This document shows, piece after piece, positions 1 through 55,078 of a stretch of DNA of 64,000 nucleotides. Made by a program: the position numbers and the translations under genes. How positions within the stretch are numbered: the stretch's first letter is position 1; each line of letters starts with the position of its first letter. Origin of the DNA: Barnesiella sp. An55 (lineage in GTDB: Bacteria; Bacteroidota; Bacteroidia; Bacteroidales; Barnesiellaceae); contig NZ_NFHZ01000012.1 of assembly GCF_002161555.1 (NCBI RefSeq), forward strand, positions 1-64,000, read 5' to 3'. The notes under the pieces were generated by a model. That model made no database searches. It was given only the letters and a program-made list of their open reading frames with translations, and was not told the origin of the DNA.

Positions 1-157
1 GACCACATGTGAAGACCCACAGAAAAAGCATTTTTTGTGCCATATTTATAATAATCTTCACAAAGATATTAAAATCAATGCTTTACTGAGGTTTAATCCT
101 GAATTTTGTCGACTAGGCCGTGATTGTAGGGGTATATAAGTAGAAGGGATGGCATAT

Positions 158-185
158 AAAAAGACGAGGAGCAAGAAGCTCCCCC
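158..185 (-). terminator. Intrinsic terminator of tracrRNA
   Basis: On the minus strand a GGAGC stem, TTCTT loop and GCTCC stem are followed by CTCGTCTTTTT. This gives the tracrRNA a defined 3' end near 158. The region 1-150 to its left shows no gene that I can recognise. Confidence 0.75.
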
Positions 186-240
186 TCTCAGATGTTTTCA
201 CAACGGAATAATCCTTATTGTGATTTGCTTTCAAATTTGT
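158..240 (-). ncRNA. tracrRNA of the type II-C CRISPR system
   Basis: A 25-nt stretch at 217-241 nearly matches the first half of the array repeat read on the minus strand (from TTGTGATT to CAAATTTGTA, one internal difference at the C/T after GATT). The opposite strand here is therefore an anti-repeat able to pair with the crRNA repeat. Reading leftward on the minus strand it is followed by AAGGATTATTCCGTTGTG, which has the GGA/UCC nexus-like hairpin typical of type II-C tracrRNAs, and then by a GGAGC/GCTCC hairpin with a T run (158-185). A TATATTTG promoter box lies just upstream at 245-252. Length about 80-85 nt. Both ends are inferred. It would guide Cas9 together with crRNA. Confidence 0.88.
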
Positions 241-244
241 AGAG

Positions 245-252
245 CAAATATA
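245..252 (-). promoter_or_regulatory. tracrRNA promoter, -7 box
   Basis: The minus strand reads TATATTTG, a full match to the Bacteroidetes -7 consensus TAnnTTTG, placed to start transcription at about 235-240, exactly where the anti-repeat begins. No convincing -33 TTTG is seen 19-21 nt further upstream. Confidence 0.6.
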
Positions 253-293
253 GGAATTCTTTCTTAATTATATTGTATATAGATAAATTTTTT

Positions 294-301
294 TACATTT
301 A
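294..301 (+). promoter_or_regulatory. Possible cas9 promoter, -7 box
   Basis: TACATTTA matches TAnnTTTG at 7 of 8 positions and lies 36 nt before the cas9 ATG. A TTG at 273-275 is 18 nt upstream, slightly short of the usual 19-21. It is divergent from the tracrRNA promoter in the same short interval. Confidence 0.35.
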
Positions 302-337
302 CAAAAAAATAGGGAATACTATAAACACACGATTAAC

Positions 338-3300
338 ATGAAAAATATATTGGGGCTGGATTTAGGGTCTTCGAGTATAGGTTGGGCTGTTGTTCATGAA
401 GATGAAGATAATAGGGACTTGATAGCGATGGGAAGTCGTATTGTACAACTTTCGGTCGAGGAGTTGTCGTCGTTTACTCAAGGTAACGGAGAGTCGGTAA
501 ATGCTCAGCGGACACGGACTCGAGGACAGCGTAGGGGGTATGACCGTTACCAGTTGCGCAGGTCGGCACTGATAGAAAAGTTGCGGTCGTTGGGAATGTT
601 GCCTGATGCTTCGTTGAGAGGATTGCCCAAGTTGCAATTGTGGGGATTGCGTTCTCGCGCGGTGACTGAGCAGATAGCTTTGCCTGAGTTGGGACGAGTG
701 TTGCTGCATCTGAATCAGAAACGGGGATACAAATCGACCAAAAGTGATTTCTCGGGCGATAAGAAGACGACCGATTATGTGAAGACGATTCTCAACCGAT
801 ACGACCAGTTGACGGCCGAGGGGTTGACCATTGGTCAGCATCTGTTCAAGGCGTTGAGTGCCGACCCTTTTTACCGCTGTAAAGAGCAGGTCTATCCACG
901 CAAGGCGTATGTCGAGGAGTTTGACCGCTTGATGGCCTGCCAGCGACAGTTCTATCCGCAGATTCTGACCGATGAGAATATCCGTTGCATACGCGACGAG
1001 ATTATATACTACCAACGGCCCCTGAAATCGTGCAAGCATTTGGTTTCGCTTTGCGAGTTTGAGAAGCGTGCCTATGAGAATGGGGCCGGCGAGAAGGTAT
1101 TTGCCGGTCCTCGGGTTGCTCCCCGCACCTCTCCGCTGTTTCAGCTTTGCCGGTTGTGGGAGAGCATAAACCACATTGAGATCAGAGACCGCCGGAACGA
1201 GGTGATTGAGATTTCGCTGGAGCAGAAGAATCGGATATTGGATTTTATGAATACTCATGAAAAGCTCAAAATAGGCGATTTGATGAAGCTGTTGGGGTTG
1301 CCCAAGTCGGGCGGCTTTCGGTTTGGCGACCAGTTCAAGGCCGGGCTGCAGGGTAACAAGACCCGCATCGATATAGCCAAGGCTTTGGGCAATTATCCAG
1401 ACCAGGAGCATTTGTTGCAGTTCAATGTTCGTGAGGTGGACTCTACACTGGTCGATGAAGAGACTGGCGAGATTCTGCCCATCATTGATACCTCGTTCGA
1501 GCAGGAACCGCTGTACAGACTTTGGCATGTACTCTATTCAATCGACGATCGCGAGCAGTTGCAGGCTGTGTTGCGCTGGCAGTTCGGTATCGACGACGAA
1601 GAGGTGCTCGCCCGCTTGAGTAAGCTCGATTTCGTGAAAGCCGGTTTTGGCAACAAATCGAGTAAGGCGATGCGCCGCATTTTGCCTTTCCTGCAACTGG
1701 GGCTGAACTATGCCGATGCGTGTGCTGCCGCCGGATACAATCATAGCCGTAGCGAGACCAAGGCCGAGAGCGAGGCGCGCCAACTGCTCGACCGCTTGCC
1801 GGCTATTCGCAAAAACGAGTTGCGGCAACCTGTGGTCGAGAAGATTCTTAACCAGATGGTCAACGTGGTAAATGCTCTCATGGAGAAGTATGGCCGTTTC
1901 GACGAGATACGGGTGGAGCTGGCTCGTGAGCTGAAGCAGAGCAAGGAGGAGCGGGAGAAGAGTTACAAGTCTATTCTGCGCACTCAGCGTGAGAACGAGC
2001 GGATTGCCGCCCGCATAGCCGAGTATGGCATCGCCACACGCTCGCGCATCCAGAAGTATAAGATGTGGGAAGAGACCGATCAATGTTGCATCTATTGCGG
2101 GCAGCCTGTAAAACTGAGTGATTTTTTGCAAGGATTCGGCGTGGAGGTCGAGCACATCATACCCCGGTCGTTGTATTTCGACAACAGCTTTATGAACAAG
2201 GTTTGTTCGTGCCGCCGCTGCAATAGCGAGAAGGGAAACAGAACCGCCTACGATTATATGGCGTCGAAAGATGCGGAGAGCTTCCAGAACTATCTCGGTC
2301 GGGTAAACGACCTGCTGGATCGGGGCAAGATATTGAAACCCAAGTGGCGCAATCTGCTTACCCCCGGTAAAGACATTCCCAAGGATTTTATAGACAGACA
2401 GTTGCGCGAGAGCCAGTATATTGCCCGCAAAGCTCGTGAGCTGCTCTCGATGGTGTGTCGCCAGGTAACGGCAACCAGCGGTACGGTGACCGATTTTCTG
2501 CGTCATACGTGGGGATGGGATACCGTGTTGCACGACCTGAACTTGCCCCGATATAAAGCGGTGGGGCTTACCGAGATGAAAGAGGTGCAGCACAACGGCA
2601 GTGTGATGAAACAAGAGCAGATAGTCGGGTGGACCAAGCGTCTCGACCATCGTCACCATGCCATCGATGCCCTCACGATAGCCTGTACCAAGCAGGGCTA
2701 CATACAGCGGTTGAACAGCATGAACGCTCAAAGCAAGGTAGAAGGAGAAGAGGGAGAAGAAGATGTGCGCTCTCAAAATCTGGAACGGTATATCCAGTCG
2801 CAGCCCCATTTCACGGTAGCCCAGGTGCGTGAGGCAGCCGACAAGATATTGATTTCGTTCAAGGCCGGCAAGAAGTCGGTAACCCCCGGCAAGCGCTACA
2901 CTCGCAAGAAGGGCAAGCGGGTGGTGGCTCAGCGTGGGTTGCTGGTGCCTCGCGGAGCCTTGAGCGAAGAGAGTGTATATGGCATTATTCGCCGATGGGA
3001 GAAAGACAAGCAGGGCAATCCCGTGCAAGTGCCGTATGCCGTGCTCAAATATCCCGTTGCTTCAATTGATTGCAAGTCTCTCAACAAAGTAGTTGACGAG
3101 GGTATCCGCCAGATACTCTCCGACCGTTTGGCCCAGTACGACGATGATCCCAAAAAGGCCTTTGCCACCCCTGTATATAGCGATGCCGAGGGGCGTGTCG
3201 CCATTCGCACCGTGCGGTGCCTGGCCCGGCCTGCGGTCGATACGTTGGTCCCGCTCAGGCGCAACGAGGCGGGGAGTCCGATAGCTTGGGCCAACCCCGG

Positions 3301-3816
3301 TAACAATCACCACGTAGCCATCTATCGCGACGAGGCCGGCAAGTATCGGGAGCAGATCGTTACCTTCTGGAATGCGGTCGATCGGCGAAGGGCCGGGCTT
3401 CCAGCCATTATCACGCAGCCACAAGCCGTGTGGGACAGTGTGTTGCAGCGAACCGACCTCTCTGAGGCCTTCCTGAAAACCCTCCCCGATGTGAAGTGGC
3501 AGTTTGTACTCTCTTTGCAGCAAAACGAAATGTTTATCCTGGGCATGAGCGACGAGGATTATCGCTATGCCATGGATCATCGCGACTATGCCTTGCTGAA
3601 CAAGTACCTCTATCGGGTGCAAAATGTAAGTACAGGTGATTATCGCTTCAGATACCATGTAGAAACCAAGGTAGACGATGAATATGATGGAAAGCCCAAT
3701 GCGACGTTGTCTATCCGTATGGGAAAATTGAAGCGGGTTCGTAGCATTAAAGCTCTATCGGAGTTAAATCCCCATAAGGTGCATTTGTCGGTGCTGGGTG
3801 AAATAGACGAAGCATT

Positions 3817-3820
<4 letters not shown>
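338..3820 (+). CDS. cas9: Cas9 endonuclease, type II-C
   Basis: RNA-guided DNA endonuclease that cuts target DNA using the crRNA:tracrRNA duplex. The 1160 residues show RuvC-I at the N-terminus (LGLDLGSSSIGWA, catalytic D8), an arginine-rich bridge helix at about 58-83, RuvC-II (RVELARE, E527), an HNH domain with VEVEHIIPRS (H606) framed by two CxxC pairs (C584/C587 and C625/C628) that probably bind zinc, and RuvC-III (DHRHHAIDAL, H774 and D777). All catalytic residues are present, so it should be active. The CxxC-bearing HNH and the size, with no cas4 or csn2 nearby, fit II-C. The ATG at 338 precedes MKNILGLDLG directly. It is the first gene of a cas9-cas1-cas2 operon and overlaps cas1 by ATGA. 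The PAM cannot be read from the sequence. Confidence 0.97.
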
Positions 3821-5084
<1,264 letters not shown>

Positions 5085-5088
5085 AAAC

Positions 5089-5118
5089 AAAAAAGCCGAT
5101 CATATAATCGGCTTTTTT
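5089..5118. terminator. Bidirectional terminator between cas2 and the array
   Basis: A perfect GCCGAT/ATCGGC stem (loop CATATA) has an A6 run on its left and a T6 run on its right, so it can act on both strands. It ends the cas operon and can also stop array transcripts arriving on the minus strand. Confidence 0.9.
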
Positions 5119-5192
5119 ATAAAATACAGCTTTGATTTTAAATCCTAACAGATTGTTTAACTGTTTGACTATAAATATGATGCACGTATTGT

Positions 5193-7061
5193 GCTGTATT
5201 TAATAAGTCAAAGATACAAATTTGAAAGCGAATCACAACGTCGAACGCTCAACTGACGGCCGATGAAAAGCTGTATTTAATAAGTCAAAGATACAAATTT
5301 GAAAGCGAATCACAACCCCATTGTTGCCGAACCCGAAGTTCCCGTTGCTGTATTTAATAAGTCAAAGATACAAATTTGAAAGCGAATCACAACAGGTACT
5401 ATTTCGAGTAAGAGAATGAGAAAGCTGTATTTAATAAGTCAAAGATACAAATTTGAAAGCGAATCACAACGCAGCGAAAGACAGAAAACAGCTTGGGTAT
5501 GCTGTATTTAATAAGTCAAAGATACAAATTTGAAAGCGAATCACAACAACGGGGACACCCGCCCGCTGATGGAGTATGCTGTATTTAATAAGTCAAAGAT
5601 ACAAATTTGAAAGCGAATCACAACTAGCGCGTCGATAGGGCTTGCCAGAGCGTTGCTGTATTTAATAAGTCAAAGATACAAATTTGAAAGCGAATCACAA
5701 CAAAAAATACTGTTTCTTGAAATAGACAGTTGCTGTATTTAATAAGTCAAAGATACAAATTTGAAAGCGAATCACAACGGTGCATAATGGTCGTATCTCT
5801 CCCAGTTAGCTGTATTTAATAAGTCAAAGATACAAATTTGAAAGCGAATCACAACTGAAGCGTTGTTAATCAGCATAAGGACGAAGCTGTATTTAATAAG
5901 TCAAAGATACAAATTTGAAAGCGAATCACAACATACGAATACTCCGACGATGAATTGAAAAAGCTGTATTTAATAAGTCAAAGATACAAATTTGAAAGCG
6001 AATCACAACAAGAAACTGATGAAGTTGTAGATTATGGTGCTGTATTTAATAAGTCAAAGATACAAATTTGAAAGCGAATCACAACGCATAAGCTCGGGCT
6101 TTACAAACATTTTATGCTGTATTTAATAAGTCAAAGATACAAATTTGAAAGCGAATCACAACGCGAGGTATGGCTAACGTTTGAAGGGCTTGAGCTGTAT
6201 TTAATAAGTCAAAGATACAAATTTGAAAGCGAATCACAACAGGCAACGGTTTGCTCGCCTCTATCCTGCCGCTGTATTTAATAAGTCAAAGATACAAATT
6301 TGAAAGCGAATCACAACAAACCAAGCCACCTTTTTGTCTGAGTATTGCTGTATTTAATAAGTCAAAGATACAAATTTGAAAGCGAATCACAACAACTGCA
6401 CATTAAGCGAGGGGTGATTTACCGCTGTATTTAATAAGTCAAAGATACAAATTTGAAAGCGAATCACAACTAGCTGCTTGTAGTTGCCTTGTCAAGCCAG
6501 CTGTATTTAATAAGTCAAAGATACAAATTTGAAAGCGAATCACAACACACCGGCTATCTGTTGGGCCTCTTGGGAGCTGTATTTAATAAGTCAAAGATAC
6601 AAATTTGAAAGCGAATCACAACACGCAAATATCAATAGACCCCGATTTGCTTGCTGTATTTAATAAGTCAAAGATACAAATTTGAAAGCGAATCACAACT
6701 TGTAGTAATTAGCAGTAACTGCATATGACGCTGTATTTAATAAGTCAAAGATACAAATTTGAAAGCGAATCACAACTGGCTCAGACAAACCGAAATATCG
6801 ATAAGCGCTGTATTTAATAAGTCAAAGATACAAATTTGAAAGCGAATCACAACTTGTCGAGCTTGTAACACTGCCGTTTTCGGGCTGTATTTAATAAGTC
6901 AAAGATACAAATTTGAAAGCGAATCACAACGAGAAATAACGATTACAAAAAAGTAGATAAGCTGTATTTAATAAGTCAAAGATACAAATTTGAAAGCGAA
7001 TCACAACTTCTGAGTCTTTCCTCCTGGTTGACCCCGAGCTGTATTTAATAAGTCAAAGATA
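5193..7061 (-). CRISPR. CRISPR array: 24 full 47-bp repeats plus one truncated, 24 spacers
   Basis: Repeat starts are 5193, 5270, 5347, 5424 and so on at 76-78 nt steps up to 6961; the repeat is 47 bp and spacers are 29-31 bp, mostly 30. The last copy (7038-7061) keeps only the first 24 bp as read on the plus strand. Read on the minus strand the repeat starts GTTGTGATTCGCTTTC and ends AAATACAGC; its first half pairs with the tracrRNA at 217-241, so the crRNA strand is the minus strand, opposite to the cas genes. Each repeat in this orientation holds GTTG, 19 nt, then TATCTTTG, a Bacteroidetes-type promoter. Full repeats appear identical by eye. No spacer origin was recognised. Confidence 0.97.
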
Positions 7062-7085
7062 GCGAAATGGCGAGTTTAGAGCAAA
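7054..7085 (-). promoter_or_regulatory. Promoter at the upstream end of the array
   Basis: On the minus strand TTTG (7082-7085), 20 nt, then TATCTTTG (7054-7061). The -7 box is the retained part of the truncated terminal repeat, while the -33 box comes from unique flanking sequence. It is therefore a complete promoter reading into the last spacer on the plus-strand map, the first one transcribed. A second TATATTTG box (7082-7089) overlaps the -33 element. Confidence 0.65.
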
Positions 7086-7105
7086 TATATGAAGGAGCTT
7101 TGGGA

Positions 7106-7130
7106 GGATACCGCGCCCCGCGCGGCATCC
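7106..7130. other. GC-rich hairpin beside the array
   Basis: GGATACCGCGC and GCGCGGCATCC form an 11-bp stem with one mismatch around a 3-nt CCC loop. It lies between the stop of the minus-strand gene at 7163 and the array. No T run follows on either strand, so it is not a standard intrinsic terminator, though it may still end or slow the upstream minus-strand transcript before the array. Confidence 0.5.
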
Positions 7131-7162
7131 AGTAATTTAGGCCTTTGTGCCCCAATGAGAGT

Positions 7163-8401
7163 CTATGAGGGGGTGGATGATGTATGTTTTCTTTTCCGCT
7201 GAATCATTCGCCCGATGGCATAGTCGGCACTTAGGAGCAGGGTGAGGGCGACGAGGGCGATGGCCAGGTGTATCCACTTGTGGTCGTTGTTGGCTTCTTG
7301 CTCGACGAGTCGGTAGAGGCGTGAATAGATGCCGGGAGAGACGGTGGAGCCGTCGCTTTTGATTACGTTTCGGGTGATGGAGATGTTGAGCAGTATTTCT
7401 CCCAGGTTATCGTTGAACCAAAGGGTGGGGTTTTGCCAGGCGGTTTGTAGAAAGTTCTCTTTGCCATAGGGGAGTAGTTCCCGTTTGAGTGTATTTGACG
7501 CCATGATCTTTTTCAAGACGGCATCGGTGAGGTATATGTCGTTTACGGTGACATACAGGTAGCCGGGCTGATGTGCGGTGAAGCTGTTCTTCTGCCCGCT
7601 GGCCAATTGTATGATGGCTTTGCACGAATCGCTGTCATAGGCGTTCCCGGCACTCTCGGAGTGGATATGGCAAAGGAGTGAACCGAATTGGGCATCGGCT
7701 TCTTTATAGATGCACAGGCTGTCGAATGTTTCGGTTTTTGCCGGGTAGGCGGTGTTGTTCCAATTGAAGTTTAGCCGGGCATTGTCTCGATTCTTGTCGT
7801 TCAAATCGGTTATGCGCCCGTAGAATGAGCCCGATGTGGTGATTTCTACGATGTCACCTTCGAGCAGTTCGACGCCGGTATTGGCCCAACAGATGGCGGT
7901 ATTGAAGAGATAGACCGTGTGTTCGCGGCCGCAGGGCTGGTTCATGGTGATGGCGCCTCGAGAGTTGATGTCGCTGTTGGGCGGGAAGAGGAGCACGTTG
8001 TTTATGAGGAAGGCCAGCATCGACACGATGAGTACGATATAGACGATGATCATCGAGATGAAGATGATGGCGTTGAGTCGTGCCGAGGTGCGTTTGCTTT
8101 TCCATTCGCCGGTAAACATCCAGCATACGACAGAGGCTATCCAGTAGAAGAGTGCGACGATGCACATGAAGCAGGCATAGAGCAGGCGCAGCAGGGCCGT
8201 GAAGAAGGGAAACCGTTTGGTTGTGTCGTATTTCCAGAACGGTTTGATGCCCAGCGACTCGTTTCCCTTTATGTCGGGATTGTTGTCTTCGCCCAGCAAT
8301 TCGGCGAAAAATGACTTGTCAACAATCTTGACATTGGCCGAGGTACCGGTGATGATACTGCGCTTGATCGTATCGATGAGTGAATTTAACCCCATTGCCA
8401 T
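7163..8401 (-). CDS. Membrane protein with a LecA-like extracytoplasmic domain, function unknown
   Basis: 412 residues, no confident family. The order is: a cytoplasmic N-terminus of about 65 aa, two to three membrane segments (about 67-99 and 109-139), a large outside domain (140-370), and a C-terminal membrane helix (about 375-398) with a basic tail. The outside domain has LFNTAICWANTGVELLEGD, a SGSFYG turn, GYLYVTVNDIYLTD and WFNDNLGEILLNISI. This pattern (GD-x-V-x-I, G-x-L-x-x-x-VND, DN-x-G) recalls the PA-IL/LecA type beta-sandwich; that is inference. The upstream neighbour is a paralogue sharing the same motifs, 6 nt away, so the two form an operon. ATG 8401 is taken; ATG 8395 is also possible. 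Confidence 0.72.
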   Translation of the reverse strand: MAMGLNSLIDTIKRSIITGTSANVKIVDKSFFAELLGEDNNPDIKGNESLGIKPFWKYDTTKRFPFFTALLRLLYACFMCIVALFYWIASVVCWMFTGEWKSKRTSARLNAIIFISMIIVYIVLIVSMLAFLINNVLLFPPNSDINSRGAITMNQPCGREHTVYLFNTAICWANTGVELLEGDIVEITTSGSFYGRITDLNDKNRDNARLNFNWNNTAYPAKTETFDSLCIYKEADAQFGSLLCHIHSESAGNAYDSDSCKAIIQLASGQKNSFTAHQPGYLYVTVNDIYLTDAVLKKIMASNTLKRELLPYGKENFLQTAWQNPTLWFNDNLGEILLNISITRNVIKSDGSTVSPGIYSRLYRLVEQEANNDHKWIHLAIALVALTLLLSADYAIGRMIQRKRKHTSSTPS

Positions 8402-49806: not shown

Positions 49807-49970
49807 GATAGCATGTGGTTGAGCGTAGTTAAACATGAAAATCGCGTTCCCGGTTTTTCTCTGTGCTTACCATTCACTATCTTTGTAGAAGATAGGATGC
49901 GGTTCGGCATAGTCAAACTTCGAAAACTGTGTTTCCGGTTTTCCTCTGCTCTCACCTTTCACTATCTTTG
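49807..49970 (+). repeat. Promoter-bearing repeat, tandem pair A
   Basis: Two copies of an about 80-bp element, 49807-49885 and 49889-49970, with -7 boxes TATCTTTG at 49878-49885 and 49963-49970 (85 nt apart). The common core is GATAGGATGCGG, TCAAAC, GAAAAC, GGTTTTC, CTCTG, then CTTTCACTATCTTTG. It ends 32 nt before the MATE gene ATG and is very probably its promoter. The same element occurs in pairs before rpe and cutC. Confidence 0.85.
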
Positions 49971-52023: not shown

Positions 52024-52178
52024 AAGACAGGATGCGGCTCGGTATAGCCAAACGTTGAAAACTTCGTTTTCCGTTTGTCTCTGCACTCGCCTTTCACTAT
52101 CTTTGGATAAAATAGGATGCGTCTCAGTATAAAAATCAAGCAAGCTTGTTTTTCTACTTTCGACTTTCACTATCTTTG
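52024..52178 (+). repeat. Promoter-bearing repeat, tandem pair B
   Basis: Copies at 52024-52105 and 52111-52178. The first has a complete promoter: TTTG (52074-52077), 20 nt, TATCTTTG (52098-52105). The second has TATCTTTG at 52171-52178, 30 nt before the rpe ATG, and carries the AAGCAAGCTTG variant also seen in pair C. Shared pieces are AGGATGCG, CTCTGCACTCGCC (first copy) and CTTTCACTATCTTTG. Confidence 0.85.
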
Positions 52179-54939: not shown

Positions 54940-55078
54940 CAAAGATAGTGAAAGGTGAGTGCAGAAAACCAAGCTTGCTTGAGCTTTTTGCCGAACCGCA
55001 TCCTATTTTCACGGTATGCAAAGATAGTGAAAGGTGAGTGCAGAGAGTCAAGTTGGTTCGAGATTTTTCTACCGGAGC
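54940..55078 (-). repeat. Promoter-bearing repeat, tandem pair C
   Basis: On the minus strand, copies at 54940-55013 and 55019-55078 with TATCTTTG at 54940-54947 and 55019-55026 (79 nt apart). The first keeps AATAGGATGCGGTTCGG, the AAGCAAGCTTGG variant and CTGCACTCACCTTTCAC; the second has lost its left half. They lie directly before cutC, the same arrangement as pairs A and B. Confidence 0.85.

Follow-up and report, generated by a model that had tools for sequence, protein, structure and literature searches.

A putative sigma-ABfr-type −7 box within the repeats of a type II-C CRISPR array of Barnesiella sp. An55 and its occurrence in other Bacteroidota repeats

Results

Organization of the CRISPR-Cas locus

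The analysed DNA, hereafter the window, is a stretch of 64,000 nucleotides of Barnesiella sp. An55. The left end of the window contains a type II-C CRISPR-Cas locus with the following features (positions are those of the window).

About 166–241, minus strand: tracrRNA gene with the anti-repeat at 217–241 (one mismatch) and a terminator-like hairpin at 166–184; the ends are approximate
245–252, minus strand: putative −7 box of the tracrRNA gene, TATATTTG, with no TTG 16–24 nt upstream in the window genome
338–3820, plus strand: cas9 (TIGR01865, NCBIfam)
3817–4746, plus strand: cas1 of type II (TIGR03639, NCBIfam)
4743–5084, plus strand: cas2 (TIGR01573, NCBIfam)
5085–5192, no strand assigned: leader of 108 bp between cas2 and the array; acquisition side by analogy with Riemerella anatipestifer
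About 5089–5118, both strands: inverted repeat in the leader with T tracts on both strands, terminator-like, flanked by the convergent cas genes and array
5193–7061, minus strand: type II-C CRISPR array of 24 full 47-nt repeats, spacers of about 30 nt and one truncated terminal repeat; the oldest end is on the right
5209–5216, minus strand: putative −7 box TATCTTTG of the leader-proximal repeat, at repeat positions 24–31 as in each of the 24 full repeats
5236–5239, minus strand: GTTG, candidate −33 box by inferred function, at repeat positions 1–4 and 19 nt from the −7 box, likewise in all 24
6977–7007, minus strand: GTTG-N19-TATCTTTG of the leader-distal full repeat, with a start predicted at about 6971–6972 from the spacing in Flavobacterium johnsoniae
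7038–7061, minus strand: truncated terminal repeat (25th copy), its first 23 nt including the GTTG arm gone, TATCTTTG (7054–7061) and the tail kept
7054–7085, minus strand: TTTG-N20-TATCTTTG at the upstream end of the array, a consensus-like promoter whose −33 half TTTG (7082–7085) is non-repeat sequence
7062–7085, minus strand: stretch like the end of a dispersed promoter element, joining the terminal repeat at its −7 box; membership tentative

The adjoining open reading frames between 338 and 5084 encode Cas9, a type II Cas1 and Cas2 without csn2 or cas4, which is the gene set of type II-C, and the 25-nt anti-repeat with a single mismatch upstream of cas9 on the minus strand is the tracrRNA signature of this subtype. 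Because the tracrRNA anti-repeat (217–241, minus strand) is complementary to the minus-strand repeat, the minus strand was taken as the crRNA strand. It is opposite to cas9 and has the truncated repeat at its 5′ end, as would fit a II-C array that is transcribed toward its acquisition end, which was placed by analogy alone. All 24 full repeats matched the Rfam family CRISPR-DR49. The nearest named relatives of the window Cas9, which come from Bacteroidales and other Bacteroidota, are at most 56% identical to it, and the Cas9s of two genomes of the same genus are 82% and 72% identical. The inverted repeat in the leader gave −17.6 and −14.3 kcal/mol, and a terminator scan did not include it among its sites. 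The search for phage targets of the spacers returned nothing convincing (7 records, best E value 5e-2).

A Bacteroidota-type −7 box in every full repeat of the window

The 31-nt string GTTGTGATTCGCTTTCAAATTTGTATCTTTG was found without any change on the minus strand of 24/24 full repeats (5193–7007), and it had no match elsewhere in the genome (49 contigs, up to three mismatches; reversed control 0). The layout proposed in the preliminary description, that is GTTG, a gap of 19 nt and TATCTTTG at repeat positions 24–31 of the minus strand, was therefore confirmed in each full repeat. The sequence TATCTTTG agrees with TAHHTTTG, the form of the sigma-ABfr −7 element proposed for F. johnsoniae promoters in the available part of that study on the ground that G is avoided at the nn positions (PMC6847099). 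The same part reports a distance of 4–5 nt from box to start and a −33 element that is hardly visible. The −7 consensus of F. johnsoniae and B. thetaiotaomicron is given as TANNTTTG, without Y, and two other papers write TANNTTTGY in the passages available. In the window repeat, the box is directly followed by A and not by Y, which was not treated as defining, and the upstream box GTTG has three of the four bases of TTTG. Thus, the fit to the Bacteroidetes consensus that had been claimed earlier holds for the −7 box and the spacing of 19, but only in part for the upstream box.

The pattern GTTG-N18-21-TAHHTTTG occurred at 26 places in the 64-kb window as compared with 0.35 expected in shuffles, of which 24 are these repeats, copies of one sequence that are to be counted once. 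The comparison between species is therefore the real test. A scan of 1–7400 for sigma-70 promoters gave 13 sites against 10.9 in shuffles, and none of the five minus-strand sites fell within the array, which ruled out sigma-70 boxes of the Neisseria and Campylobacter type in the repeats.

Conservation of the box across Bacteroidota II-C repeats

The set of Cas9-bearing loci comprised 49 named loci and 120 regions of further genomes, partly of the same organisms. Including the window, it yielded 125 repeat arrays with 116 distinct repeats, among them a few that are not CRISPR. Some loci overlap (for example L009/L101, L042/L103 and L017/L105), and repeats of the same sequence entered the counts only once. 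Similarity to GTTGTGATTTGC was used to orient each repeat, a choice that may introduce bias. For the divergent set, 47 long repeats (44–49 nt) that are less than 80% identical to each other were used; repeats of other lengths or with a 5′ score below 7 were excluded, which may also bias the set, and the 47 are related by descent and not fully independent.

The full TAnnTTTG starting at positions 19–32 was found in 29/47 of these repeats, five of its six bases in 11/47 and fewer in 7/47. Shuffling of the tails over 2000 rounds gave a mean of 0.67 and a maximum of 4 per 47, or about 1.4% per tail. The comparison of boxes across Bacteroidota II-C repeats, which had been set as a check in the preliminary description, thus came out in favour of the box. 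Among all distinct repeats, TAnnTTTG was present in the tail of 53/84 long (44–49 nt) and 5/29 short ones. The short-repeat arrays were rejected as a plain negative control, as several of them go with other Cas9 branches or another orientation and 5/29 hold TAnnTTTG themselves.

In an alignment made blind to the box, the column conservation was.85 (T),.89 (A),.66 (n),.62 (n),.87 (T),.89 (T),.77 (T) and.77 (G), and it was.32–.49 in the four columns after the box. By these values the box appears as a conserved island between the arm that pairs with tracrRNA and a freely varying tail. The nn positions in the 29 repeats are TC, AC, TA, TT, CC or CT and never include G; the repeats with G at nn (L060, L084 and L091) are all outside the 29. 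The base after the box, counted by eye, was C or T in 15, A in 11 and G in 3 of the 29. The kinship among the 47 repeats, the near-universal GTTG and this disregard of Y would suit a functionless TAnnTTTG-like string inherited by chance in an AT-rich repeat family, but such an origin is very improbable given 29/47 against a null mean of 0.67 and the sharp fall of conservation both at the two n bases and beyond the box.

The gap between GTTG and the box was 18, 19, 20, 21, 22 and 23 nt in 7, 11, 6, 3, 1 and 1 of the 29 repeats, respectively. The start of the repeat is GTTG in 82/84 distinct long and 24/29 distinct short repeats, with or without the box. The candidate −33 element within the repeat that had been described earlier corresponds to GTTG at a gap of 19, but since GTTG is near-universal regardless of the box, its presence is not independent evidence of a promoter. 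In L036 and L040, which have a period of 66 bp, the box is still at position 24 despite the shorter repeat, and this indicates that the box is tied to the 5′ end of the repeat. Between the box and the end of the repeat on the leader side there are 12 to 17 nt, and fewer in the repeats with the 66-bp period. This variation speaks against the alternative that the box is conserved for spacer acquisition, by contact with Cas1-Cas2 or a host factor, and not for transcription. The TAnnTTTG form with variable nn and no G among the 29 speaks against it too, as it copies the promoter rule. Contacts inside the repeat do matter for integration in other CRISPR subtypes, and the box lies in the middle of the repeat; nevertheless, we hold an acquisition role in place of a promoter role to be quite unlikely.

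Gene-upstream promoters, tracrRNA genes and pairing

In the 568 gene-upstream regions from up to 89 loci, TAnnTTTG occurred 246 times in the sense and 198 times in the antisense direction, a mild strand bias. NTTG preceded these boxes at gaps of 19 and 20 in 25 and 35 of 232 cases, as compared with 0–10 at each of the other gaps from 10 to 31. The spacing of 19 in the window repeat is therefore within the optimum of 19–20 measured upstream of genes in these loci.

The tracrRNA genes served as an internal control. TAHHTT[TC]G was found within the 36 nt before the anti-repeat core in 58/78 tracrRNA candidates, with 5 in the reversed control and 1 in the adjacent upstream 36 nt, and 38 of the 58 box-bearing candidates have TTG at 18–21. 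At least two of the 58 strings (L041 and L147) fall within the anti-repeat, each with another box upstream, and some of the 71 best anti-repeat matches listed are degenerate repeats or chance matches and not tracrRNA. These results suggest that the tracrRNA genes of these loci carry the same promoter type as the repeats, in which the most frequent gap from GTTG to box is one base shorter than in the tracrRNA genes. Homology between the tracrRNA −7 box and the repeat box was considered and rejected, as the two are on opposite strands of the homologous stretch.

The pairing of the window tracrRNA with the repeat ends after TA, two bases into the box. For the 55 scored repeats, the pairing rate, chance pairing included, was 0.82–1.0 in the first two thirds of the arm and 0.5–0.8 near its end. 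It was 0.20–0.62 at the first seven positions of the box and 0.78 at the last G, often as G-U in the rows shown. Pairing with tracrRNA was hence rejected as the reason for most of the box, since that of the window stops after TA. It is possible that one stretch serves both as −33 element and as tracrRNA-pairing arm.

Repeats without the box and related strings

The full box is absent in 18/47 repeats, one of which (L016) is probably not CRISPR. The repeats without the box include those of L027, L037, L047 and L053. In three of these loci (L027:14349–15300, L053:14334–16767 and L047:14578–15603) the array runs in the direction of cas9, before an inverted cas2, and cas1 was not found in L047; L037 has the ordinary layout and orientation. 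The first repeat of L027 lies within about 10 nt of the end of cas1, directly behind its stop codon and in the same direction, and read-through from cas1 could serve this box-less array. The array of L022 is also directly behind cas1 (about 10 nt) in the same direction, with no cas2 found, yet it has kept the box. A clear link between loss of the box and an array that has the direction of the cas genes was therefore rejected, as both L022 and L037 are exceptions to it.

The arrangement in L027 bears on the alternative that one long pre-crRNA is made from an outside promoter at the leader-distal end (7054–7085 in the window), the in-repeat boxes being weak or silent. The array without boxes behind the cas1 stop codon agrees with such a source, but the box kept in L022 does not, and an outside promoter leaves unexplained why the internal repeats of 29/47 divergent repeats carry the box.

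TCTTTG without a preceding TA occurs at other places in the repeats of L055, L058, L059, L060, L083, L089, L143, L156 and L157. The presence of this string at several places in nine loci may reflect another role of it, which counts in favour of an acquisition function. In L055 and L143, TCTTTG belongs to a string of eight bases that lies 20 nt behind a second TTG of the repeat (positions 9–11), and the distance is 21 nt in L156 and 22 nt in L157 (by eye); these could be promoters in a new register or some other use of the string.

Separately, the repeats of L032, L044, L048, L049, L056 and L063 have TAnCTTAG or TAGCTTCG at position 28 instead of TAnnTTTG. This group may be a lineage in which the −7 box has moved or changed.

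The oldest repeat

The first repeat on the crRNA strand could be read in 51 arrays that have a TAnnTTnG box. To enter this set, an array needed three or more copies, a repeat of at least 36 nt and a first copy away from the contig edge, and these criteria may bias the set. In 24/51, the 5′ arm has lost 8 nt or more, and the −7 core is intact in 20 of these 24 and broken in L102, L133, L135 and L147. A binomial test with uniform break points gave p = 0.0008 for 20/24. In 8/32 eroded repeats an insert has displaced the arm, which is found further upstream, and a ninth match (L037) is the tracrRNA anti-repeat. The retention is weak evidence because the test assumes uniform break points and these eight are insertions. 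TTG at a gap of 19–20 was seen in just 4/24 eroded first repeats with an intact box. The oldest repeat is not the site of acquisition, and its keeping of the box in 20/24 eroded cases is a further point against a function in acquisition.

The oldest repeat of L029, L041, L058, L111, L127, L140 and L143 is split after about 12–19 nt by a short insert. Some of these inserts look hairpin-like by eye and lie at a similar place across loci, which agrees with the published proposal that extraneous crRNA is blocked in this way.

A dispersed element at the box of the terminal repeat

An intergenic element ending in ...CTCrCCTTTCrCTATCTTTG was found at 77 places of the genome (up to two mismatches; control 0) and in 9/9 genomes of the genus. 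Copies were read in L180–L209, and the window contains the following ones.

49951–49970: copy of the dispersed element
52086–52105: copy of the dispersed element
52159–52178: copy of the dispersed element
54940–54959: copy of the dispersed element
55019–55038: copy of the dispersed element

Among 28 distinct copies from 30 fetched loci, an open ATG frame begins within 160 nt downstream in 23 and on the other side in 4, and 15/28 have TTG at 18–21. With these frames and TTG, the copies look like Bacteroidota-type promoters. Our literature search on the dispersed element returned nothing to the point.

The element is partly in tandem with units of about 75–90 bp (by eye), and TATCTTTG is present at both ends of the unit in tandem copies. 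It is as if the units insert at −7 boxes or copy them.

In L098 (2320–2449), which is of the same genus, the terminal CRISPR repeat contains one unit of the element, located at the TATCTTTG of the repeat. TATCTTT flanks the unit on either side and is followed by C in one case and by G in the other. The flank of the window array is similar to that of L098 over about 26 nt only, and the alignment score beyond this, 34, was within the range of shuffles (mean 30, maximum 54) and not significant. When extended by one base, the exact element pattern matched only the window's own place, plus one place at two mismatches. The element at the box of the terminal repeat supports the sequence-based reading of the box as a −7 element, and it also feeds the possibility of transcription from one end, as does the consensus-like TTTG-N20-TATCTTTG at the terminal repeat of the window. 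A single outside source remains rather unlikely on the whole, and an outside promoter can coexist with starts within the repeats.

Discussion

A model for transcription from within the repeats

We consider it probable that the box is a sigma-ABfr −7 element which would give rise to transcription within the repeats. The sequence of the box, its conservation and spacing, the non-pairing over most of it and the promoter type of the tracrRNA genes were observed directly. Our confidence is somewhat reduced because Y is not kept after the box and the strand bias upstream of genes is mild. From these observations, we infer that RNA polymerase with the primary sigma factor (sigma-ABfr) would recognise TATCTTTG at positions 24–31 as −7 element, and that GTTG at positions 1–4 may assist as a weak −33. 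Transcription would start about 4–5 nt past the box at position 36–37, which is 11–12 nt before the spacer. The preliminary description had expected starts about 8–13 nt before the 3′ end of the repeat, and the start predicted from the box-to-start distance of 4–5 nt falls within that range. Its further suggestion that no 5′ processing would be needed does not follow, as the predicted transcript would have 11–12 nt of repeat before the spacer, and these together with about 30 nt of spacer ahead of the next repeat. The minus-strand transcripts would then cover the spacer and the following repeat, in which about the first 25 nt would pair with tracrRNA, and would end at or before the leader hairpin (5089–5118), ahead of cas2. 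New spacers in this strain would enter at the leader, the end far from any outside promoter, so starts within the repeats could keep new spacers expressed at any length of the array.

A wider proposal, which we put forward tentatively and at slightly below even confidence, is that the long (46–49 nt) Bacteroidota II-C repeat combines a tracrRNA-pairing arm doubling as −33, a selected sigma-ABfr −7 box and an acquisition end. Every spacer would thus form a separate transcription unit in much of the phylum, the spacing from the box to the 5′ end being kept through insertions, deletions and loss of the tail. In one genus, the box of the oldest repeat would have become the site of a dispersed promoter element.

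Bacteroidota are major gut bacteria. In the parts of the literature available to us, the source of their II-C crRNA has so far been either a guess based on the three bases TTG or the statement that promoters are absent from the repeats, and a defined −7 box would be a single mutation to test. It could account for the expression of new spacers at the far end and would offer a reason for part of the unusual length of the repeat, and a repeat cloned in Bacteroides may come with a promoter of its own.

Comparison with known systems

The in-repeat promoters of Neisseria and Campylobacter have sigma-70 type boxes. Those of the II-C arrays of Neisseria meningitidis and Campylobacter jejuni, reportedly described by Zhang 2013 and Dugar 2013, are cited in passages of PMC12080349, PMC13187072 and PMC5006608, and passages of this literature treat in-repeat promoters as the rule for II-C. 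On the same subtype, the available text of Feussner 2025 (PMC12080349) reports that mutations of the oldest repeat fall mainly within the first 15 nt and that this repeat is said to need its promoter kept. The decay of first repeats counted here agrees with that account, though as weak evidence; the main text of Feussner 2025 has no Bacteroid, Flavobacter or TAnnTTTG and does not analyse the box.

Closer to the window, an array of Flavobacterium columnare (Hoikkala 2021, PMC8092290) is likewise a Bacteroidota II-C array for which the passages available propose a repeat-borne TTG as −33, located 33 bp upstream of each spacer, with reads (eight) toward the leader; it differs in having a 36-nt repeat, and a −7 box is not named in those passages. 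A repeat-encoded TTG was also proposed, following Hoikkala 2021, for the Fp2Cas9 locus of F. psychrophilum (PMC10309648, 2023). In the part of that paper available to us, RNA-seq showed the array to be transcribed and TAnnTTTG was assigned to the cas9 promoter and not to the repeat. The CRISPR1 locus of R. anatipestifer (PMC5006608, PMC6008519) is II-C with 47-nt repeats like the present one, and acquisition at its cas2 side has been shown (PMC6008519, relevant passages). The 2016 paper (PMC5006608), as far as its text was available, reports no potential promoters in the repeats and names BDGP prediction for the leader.

The novelty seen in the preliminary description stands in that the boxes are of the Bacteroidetes type and not sigma-70, and it is narrowed by the TTG −33 proposed earlier for Flavobacterium repeats (PMC8092290 and PMC10309648, in the parts available). 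In full-text searches of openly accessible papers, and in passages of a selection including those with both TAnnTTTG and CRISPR, TAnnTTTG was not found assigned to a II-C repeat. In-repeat II-C promoters being already known, what appears to be new from the sequence comparison is the Bacteroidota-type −7 box in the repeat. The window array resembles those of Neisseria and Campylobacter, as described in the passages available, in its subtype, a promoter in each repeat, transcription toward the acquisition end and a degenerate oldest repeat, all but the subtype and the degenerate repeat being predicted here from sequence. It differs from them in that a sigma-ABfr-like box lies midway along a repeat of 47 nt and that the start is predicted within the repeat and not in the spacer.
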